Shown here: piece by piece, positions 25,598-31,697 of the stretch
Position numbering within the stretch: the stretch's first letter is position 1
Layout: the number at the start of each line of letters is the position of its first letter
From: Elusimicrobiaceae bacterium
Lineage (GTDB): Bacteria > Elusimicrobiota > Elusimicrobia > Elusimicrobiales > Elusimicrobiaceae
Length of the DNA stretch: 64,000 nt
Direction of reading: 5' to 3'
Assembly (NCBI GenBank): GCA_017520185.1
Contig: JAFXGO010000030.1
Location: 1 to 64,000, forward strand
Made by a program: the position numbers and the translations under genes
The notes under the pieces: model-generated
What the model was told of the DNA's origin: nothing
Databases searched by the model: none
Seen by the model: the letters and a program-made list of their open reading frames with translations, nothing else

Positions 25598-25806
25598 CTG
25601 TTTTTGGAACCATATTCAGATATGGTGTATGCCGAGTAAAATCGGCACGCAAACAGGCCAAAAACAGTCGTTTTAGGCACAAAGTAAGCGGACTAATTAC
25701 CCGATTATTTTGTGCCGAGTGTTTGCCGTCCTATGGGCGGCAGACCACGGCTGTTTCTTAAGGGCTACCTGTTTGCGGCTCTGGGAAAACAGCCGTTTTT
25801 GTTTTT
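25598..25806 (+). ncRNA. Structured RNA with predicted pseudoknot and terminator
   Basis: About 200 nt between rlmI-like and a pilin gene fold almost completely. P1: CTGTTTTTGG (25598-25607) with CCAAAAACAG (25658-25667). Inside it: CCATAT/ATATGG (25610-25625, loop TCAG) and TGCCGA/TCGGCA (25630-25647). P3: a long hairpin 25676-25716 beginning GGCACAAA and ending TTTGTGCC. P4: TGCCGTCC/GGGCGGCA (25724-25742). Final stem: ACGGCTGTTT (25747-25756) with AAACAGCCGT (25787-25796), followed by a T-run to 25806. The loop of this last stem holds CCTGTTTGCG (25768-25777), an exact 10-bp complement of CGCAAACAGG (25648-25657) inside P1. I match it to no known RNA family. It may be a free-standing RNA or a leader that controls the pilin gene. 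Confidence 0.7.
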
Positions 25807-25833
25807 TGGGGCCCGACAAAAGGAGTGGAAAAT

Positions 25834-26304
25834 ATGAAAAAAGGTTTTACGTTGATTGAACTACTGGTTGTTGTTTTGATTATCGGCATTTTGTCGGCAG
25901 TTGCTTTGCCGCAATACACCAAAGCAGTCACCAAAACACGCTTTGCCGAAGCAATTACTTTGCTGAAAAGCATTAAAACAGCCAAAGATGTGTGTTTTTT
26001 AGAAAAGGAGAATGAATGTTCCGAGTTATCTGAGTTAGATATAGAAGTTCCCAGTGAAACAAAGTATTTTGAATTTTTTGCTTCGGATCCTCAAAGTGGT
26101 CTTTTTGGTCCTTCTGTTGGATATAAAAATGAACAAGTTTGTATATGTTATTACGATGAAGAAAATCCTGAAAGCGGTCAAAATGCTAAATTGGTGTTGT
26201 CTCAAAATCACGAATGGTCTTGCTCGGATACTCCGGCAAGTTTTGACTATGCTAAACTATTAAATATTCCTGAAGTTTCTGAAGAAGACTGTGGTTGTTG
26301 TTAA
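25834..26304 (+). CDS. Type IV pilin-like protein (orphan)
   Basis: A 156-residue prepilin. The leader MKKG is followed by FTLIELLVVVLIIGILSAV, giving prepilin peptidase cleavage after Gly4 and the conserved Glu5 of the mature protein. The head domain is unique and acidic, with seven Cys (ending CGCC). The ATG at 25834 is eight bases after AGGAG. No assembly ATPase, platform or secretin gene is nearby. It lies directly behind the structured RNA and 57 bp before tRNA-Phe. Could be a major or minor pilin, or a pseudopilin. Confidence 0.85.
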   Translation: MKKGFTLIELLVVVLIIGILSAVALPQYTKAVTKTRFAEAITLLKSIKTAKDVCFLEKENECSELSELDIEVPSETKYFEFFASDPQSGLFGPSVGYKNEQVCICYYDEENPESGQNAKLVLSQNHEWSCSDTPASFDYAKLLNIPEVSEEDCGCC

Positions 26305-31685: not shown

Positions 31686-31697
31686 GGAAGAAGAAAT

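Follow-up and report, generated by a model that had tools for sequence, protein, structure and literature searches.

The RNA encoded on the + strand at 25598-25806 of the window, a 64,000-nucleotide stretch of an Elusimicrobiaceae genome, is a member of an undescribed RNA family of gut Elusimicrobia that reaches more than 100 copies per genome. Judged from its sequence and from modelled folds, it is probably a cis-acting transcription attenuator, a bistable leader that would adopt either a terminator or an antiterminator state. Attenuation by competing helices is already known as a working principle. The novelty would lie in the family itself, with its number of copies, its palindromic loops and a putative copy-specific toehold; Rfam 15 does not contain it, and a search of mainly open-access literature gave no paper describing it.

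The segment folds at −90.3 kcal/mol with RNAfold, against a mean of −57.3 (sd 4.5) for shuffled sequences (z = −7.4), and none of 200 dinucleotide shuffles folded as well; the complementary strand also folds (z = −5.8). All the helices named in the initial annotation (P1, two inner hairpins, a long hairpin, the next hairpin and a final stem) are present in the sequence, and all the features that follow lie on the + strand. A 5′ flank with a conserved AAAATTTAAT-like element, recognized from the upstream consensus, stands immediately before P1 (25581-25597). The P1 5′ arm CTGTTTTTGG (25598-25607), identical in 124 of 157 copies, is 99.2% paired with the 3′ arm CCAAAAACAG (25658-25667), and P1 encloses the predicted hairpins P2 (25609-25626) and P3 (25627-25647) as well as a segment that we call PKa (CGCAAACAGG, 25648-25657). 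The 3′ arm is followed by the three-base extension YYG, here TCG (25668-25670), then by the long hairpin P4 (25676-25716), whose apical loop of 2 + 6 + 1 nt holds the palindromic hexamer TAATTA (25694-25699), and by hairpin P5 (about 25721-25746). The last stem, P6, consists of a 5′ arm CGGCTGTTT (25748-25756) and a 3′ arm AAACAGCCG (25787-25795); between them lies PKb (CCTGTTTGCG, 25768-25777), the exact reverse complement of PKa, as had been noted over its ten nucleotides. P6 runs into the U-tract TTTTTGTTTTTT (25796-25806), in agreement with the earlier description of a terminated structured RNA. The ribosome-binding site (RBS) AAAGGAG (25819-25825) and a pilin gene of 156 aa (25834-26304; PF07963, N_methyl), the predicted target of the leader, come next, with the start codon 34 nt past the end of the RNA model.

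BLASTN revealed many dispersed homologues of this RNA within the genus. Of the 61 genomes searched in the genus, 57 had matches to a covariance model (R1) built from 26 of these homologues, and four had none. R1 also matched every one of the 18 genomes in a sister genus (g15) and 14 genomes in f21, another family of the phylum; the other family of the same order gave almost no matches. Three copies lie in the window's own genome (G000); model matches number 60 in G064 and 136 in the 1.7-Mb genome G084. Because 35 of the 37 matches in the 391 kb of G084 that were examined correspond to sense-strand places, a realistic total for it is roughly 130. Diverged copies that lack P4 gave a second model (R2), which extends the family by a type-2 branch in g1, g12, g13, g15 and f21. 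Most of the named carrier records are rumen and gut MAGs of Elusimicrobiaceae or Elusimicrobium, and further carriers are Elusimicrobiota MAGs with termite-type isolate names. One weak R1 match of 27.9 bits (L140:3355-3502, JAIROK010000093.1) comes from a termite-type MAG labelled Campylobacteraceae and may represent a type-2-like RNA or reflect misbinning of the contig. Matches in viral contigs and other phyla were discounted, as they scored below 28 bits and were mostly the palindromic P1 alone in a short-pattern search.

The initial annotation had assigned the RNA to no known family, and the Rfam comparison bears this out: the window gave tRNAs only, with nothing relevant at the gathering score, and a permissive scan of the region (E ≤ 10) gave only chance-level matches. 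Candidate structured RNAs have been described from termite hindgut bacteria, among them Termite-flg and Termite-leu (PMC2864571); neither of their Rfam entries, RF01729 and RF01730, matches the window RNA. Our literature search, covering mainly open-access papers, found no report of such an RNA or of any Elusimicrobia leader family.

The helices are kept among the homologues. In an alignment of 26 sequences, 92.4% of the cells of the structure, pseudoknot included, were paired, compared with 79.5% for shuffled sequences and 36-49% when the partners were slid, and covariation reached 0.438 against 0.204, with 0 of 500 shuffles as high; since shuffle controls leave relatedness uncorrected, the slid controls and the swap test below are the better guides. 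The PKa/PKb helix pairs in 26 of 26 homologues, and all ten of its pairs have changed on both sides in this alignment. The same holds for 16 of 16 pairs in P4 (93.6% of cells paired) and for seven of eight in P5, and the P6 hairpin is 99% paired across homologues. When we looked at 157 copies, at least seven uninterrupted Watson-Crick pairs joined PKa to the PKb of its own copy in 98.7% of cases and in 1.5% when the strands were swapped between copies. This conserved pairing is carried by very different sequences, with 135 different 9-mers of PKa among the 157 copies, and the 34 copies from G084 that were compared all differ from one another. Neither of the outcomes named in the initial annotation as refuting, absent covariation and an Rfam match, was observed.

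In P1, P4, P5, P6 and the antiterminator helix of the homologues, G-U combinations outnumber A-C combinations by 117 to 11, and this excess indicates that the + strand RNA is the selected one. Such selection on one RNA strand speaks against a mobile repeat, a folded DNA resembling a MITE or an attC site that has spread with pilin cassettes, an explanation that the dispersed, multicopy and hyper-structured nature of the element would otherwise invite, as would a copy number ranging from 1 to more than 100 between related species. However, no two G084 copies share more than 71% identity, and one copy is kept after an RlmI-like gene in four genomes (G000, G027, G013 and G084). A phage or plasmid origin was also considered, and the lack of any BLASTN match to phages or plasmids ruled against it. 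We regard the mobile repeat as very improbable.

The attenuator reading rests on a second pairing scheme. The terminator 5′ arm (CGGCTGTTT) finds a complement in AAACAGTCG (25662-25670), which consists of the end of the P1 3′ arm and the three bases after it. The YYG extension is what pairing with CGG would need, although it lies outside P1; it lengthens the antiterminator helix and not P1, and its three positions are conserved (Y in 150, Y in 155 and G in 131 of the 157 copies). The antiterminator helix has 99% of its cells paired, with Y facing G, and its changes in type-1 RNAs are mostly one-sided changes of this kind, not strict two-sided covariation. PKa lies directly 5′ of the P1 3′ arm and PKb 3′ of the terminator 5′ arm; the PKa:PKb helix is therefore nested in this arrangement and extends the alternative helix, and the combined helix excludes both P1 and the terminator. 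Since PKa sits in the P1 loop beside the 3′ arm, the same pairing makes a pseudoknot only in the state that contains P1 and the terminator. Thus, the 10-bp pseudoknot of the initial annotation is real as a pairing but turns into a nested continuation of the antiterminator in the other state. The switch suggested there, a competition of P1, through its AAAAACAG arm, for the CTGTTT of the terminator, is strongly supported by the YYG conservation and the 99% pairing of the alternative helix.

The predicted folds back this competition. In RNAfold predictions for growing transcripts of the window copy, P1 forms first, the alternative helix takes over from about nt 160, and P1 returns together with the terminator when the last arm is added. 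Among the 157 copies, transcripts cut before the terminator 3′ arm contain the antiterminator in 150, and of the full transcripts, 147 contain P1 and 148 the terminator. When the P6 loop was swapped between copies, the truncated folds had the antiterminator in 81.5% of cases and P1 rose from 2.5% to 29%; with shuffled loops these values were 53% and 49%. As swapped loops still give the antiterminator in 81.5%, the truncated fold alone is no proof of it. The two states are close in energy, at −90.2 (terminator) and −87.3 (antiterminator) kcal/mol for the window copy, a gap of 2.9, and the median gap in the family is about 5-6 kcal/mol. A subtype with changed yet complementary helices provides further support. 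In type-2 RNAs the topology is kept with exchanging arms that read differently (AATAATCG faces CGATTATT, for instance); their PK helix is 99.6% paired, with both-side changes in eight of eight pairs. RNAalifold picks the antiterminator state unprompted for the type-2 consensus, and the full-length minimum free energy folds divide 14/17 between antiterminator and terminator, about half having the antiterminator as minimum, and show no clear default state. Both types have a conserved alternative helix that is incompatible with the terminator.

We propose the following scheme, in which A and B are the P1 arms (B including YYG) and C and D the P6 arms. In the OFF state, P1 (A:B) and the terminator (C:D) would form and transcription would end before the gene. 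In the ON state, B would pair with C, PKa:PKb would extend the helix, and the resulting disruption of P1 and the terminator would let RNA polymerase read into the pilin gene or another surface or DNA-modification gene. PKa, located beside B, may act as a copy-specific toehold helping C to invade P1. As in classical attenuators and transcriptional riboswitch platforms, the helices are mutually exclusive and use common strands, and the terminator lies just before the RBS. Unlike in classical attenuators, the antiterminator is extended by a copy-specific helix of 8-12 bp whose pairing is conserved and whose sequence is almost free. A further difference is that arms A and C, like arms B and D, are near-repeats, which is why both states can swap partners.

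The choice between the states might be made by an RNA-binding factor, by a metabolite or other small molecule, by loop-loop contacts or dimerisation through P4, or by plain kinetics. No second NusG paralogue of the RfaH or LoaP style was found: 16 genomes have a single NusG domain each, and none was found in the incomplete G000. Hfq and CsrA gave no match above cut-off in 15 genomes. GGDEF genes are present in genomes with and without the RNA, and their presence is uninformative as to a cyclic-dinucleotide signal. A ligand is the essence of one rival explanation, a riboswitch in which P1-P2-P3 (or P4/P5) would form the aptamer and the ligand would stabilise P1, hence the terminator. Sharing a P1 arm between aptamer and expression platform is indeed the architecture of transcriptional riboswitches, GGDEF proteins are encoded in these genomes, and in Clostridioides difficile pilA1 is under the control of a c-di-GMP riboswitch (PMC6200980). 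That riboswitch (Cdi-2-4) is likewise a leader that sets readthrough before a type IV pilin gene, and c-di-GMP riboswitches likewise occur in many copies per genome: strain 630 has 16, a number called exceptional (PMC6200980), and G084 holds about eight times more. Unlike them, however, the present family has no conserved aptamer core that we could see and also stands before sugar-coat and DNA-modification genes. The c-di-GMP-I and c-di-GMP-II covariance models gave no gathering-level match to the window RNA and none up to E = 10, nor did any other Rfam riboswitch match. Moreover, the sequences of P2, P3 and the junction are variable, hardly any unpaired position is invariant, and GGDEF genes also occur in G028 and G005, genus members in which no copy was found. 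A ligand-binding riboswitch is therefore unlikely in our view.

The attenuator reading also relies on the position of the RNA relative to genes. Upstream consensus sequences drawn from 35 and from 105 copies show that many relatives have boxes resembling −10 elements some 20-40 nt before P1; the window copy's own promoter is weak or uncertain. At the G084 loci L217-L236 a conserved AAAATTTAAT / ACAATTT element lies just before P1; as it is downstream of the −10 box in many copies, it is probably transcribed. On the other side, P6 and its U-tract form an intrinsic terminator placed between the promoter side and the RBS. A wider set of 193 copies showed an RBS-like motif and a same-strand start codon downstream in 147, with a median distance of 38 nt from RNA to start codon (interquartile range 34-54); 33 (about 17%) had no downstream ORF call. 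These figures turn against the stand-alone RNA that the initial annotation had offered as an alternative. A family of trans-acting small RNAs, each with its own promoter and terminator and followed only incidentally by a gene, would account for the −10-like boxes, the strong terminator, the compact fold and the possible kissing loops. However, the translation signals usually follow at a narrow distance, about 40 nt leave no room for a promoter of the gene, and a zinc-ribbon gene is kept behind type-1 (L128, L025, L084) and type-2 (L252) leaders; we find this explanation distinctly improbable. The small zinc-ribbon family concerned (MALIKC...) follows type-1 leaders in g1 and g15 and the type-2 leader in g12, which suggests that leader and gene have been retained together over the long term.

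The pilin named as target in the initial annotation does follow the window RNA, but across the family the targets are not pilins alone. In G084 a pilin follows 31 of 35 copies by motif, and one more by eye; the prepilin motif has its GF codon 44-88 nt past the RNA. Elsewhere the genes include sugar-coat enzymes (glycosyltransferases of families 8, 2, 61 and 9, LicD, polysaccharide pyruvyl transferase), outer-membrane barrels, EcoRI-type methylases and zinc-ribbon proteins, and the 25 Pfam families listed downstream include N_methyl, GT8, GT2, EcoRI_methylase and OMP_b-brl. Directly behind the third G000 copy, on the minus strand, lies a type III restriction-modification-like operon (L340:2197-8198, G000:C8), whose products are an HKD/SNF2 helicase, a protein with DUF4391 and a type III methylase (MTase_III). 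Type III toxin-antitoxin loci have a comparable order, in which the pseudoknotted ToxI RNA is followed by a terminator and then a gene. The present RNA is a single unit, whereas ToxI consists of repeats, and no toxin family of the ToxN kind is found among the 25 listed. Leaders accompany only part of the pilins: the 1.4-Mb G000 has 61 N_methyl (PF07963) genes and three leaders, so most pilins are without one, including those of the window at 31692 and 45060. Relatives carry 60 to 150 or more prepilin-type genes, with 82 in the single-contig genome G118. At seven loci (L017, L070, L072, L089, L131, L134 and L203) the pilin ORF has some 40-60 extra codons ahead of the prepilin motif, possibly an inserted repeat.

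The apical loop of P4 contains a palindrome of at least 6 nt in 69% of copies, against 14% of shuffled loops, and of at least 4 nt in 93% against 52%. The palindrome is kept while its sequence varies (TAATTA, TTATAA, TTGCAA, TCATGA, TTCGAA, GATC, AGCT, GGCC, GTAC and others), and for some classes many related copies owe their palindrome to common inheritance. The 2 + 6 + 1 nt geometry, present in 95 of 157 copies, is like that of the HIV-1 DIS loop, in which 2 nt, a 6-nt palindrome and 1 nt follow each other; here the RNA is bacterial, the palindromes are many and dimerisation is putative. Because adjacent bases cannot pair within one loop, intermolecular kissing would be the natural reading of these palindromes. 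According to one account, functional RNA oligomers are seldom seen in nature (PMC7357161). Type-2 RNAs are without P4, and dimerisation is therefore not essential to the switch. We speculate, with considerable doubt, that up to more than 100 bistable leaders per genome form a network in which P4-palindrome dimerisation, rather than a metabolite or protein, picks the pilin, glycosyltransferase and modification genes to be read. If this were true, the network of P4 contacts, in which the same palindrome means the same group, would be an RNA-based system of surface variation.

If the attenuator reading is right, the family would rank among the largest expansions that any single cis-regulatory RNA has undergone in a bacterial genome. 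It also supplies a new covariance model for annotation and, through its palindromic loops, opens RNA dimerisation in gene control to direct testing. Pilins, sugar-coat enzymes, outer-membrane proteins and restriction-modification systems form a set that resembles phase-variable genes elsewhere. Here such a set would be controlled by an RNA switch and not by DNA repeats or inversions, and this would explain how gut Elusimicrobia with tiny genomes could choose among 60 to 150 or more pilin genes.
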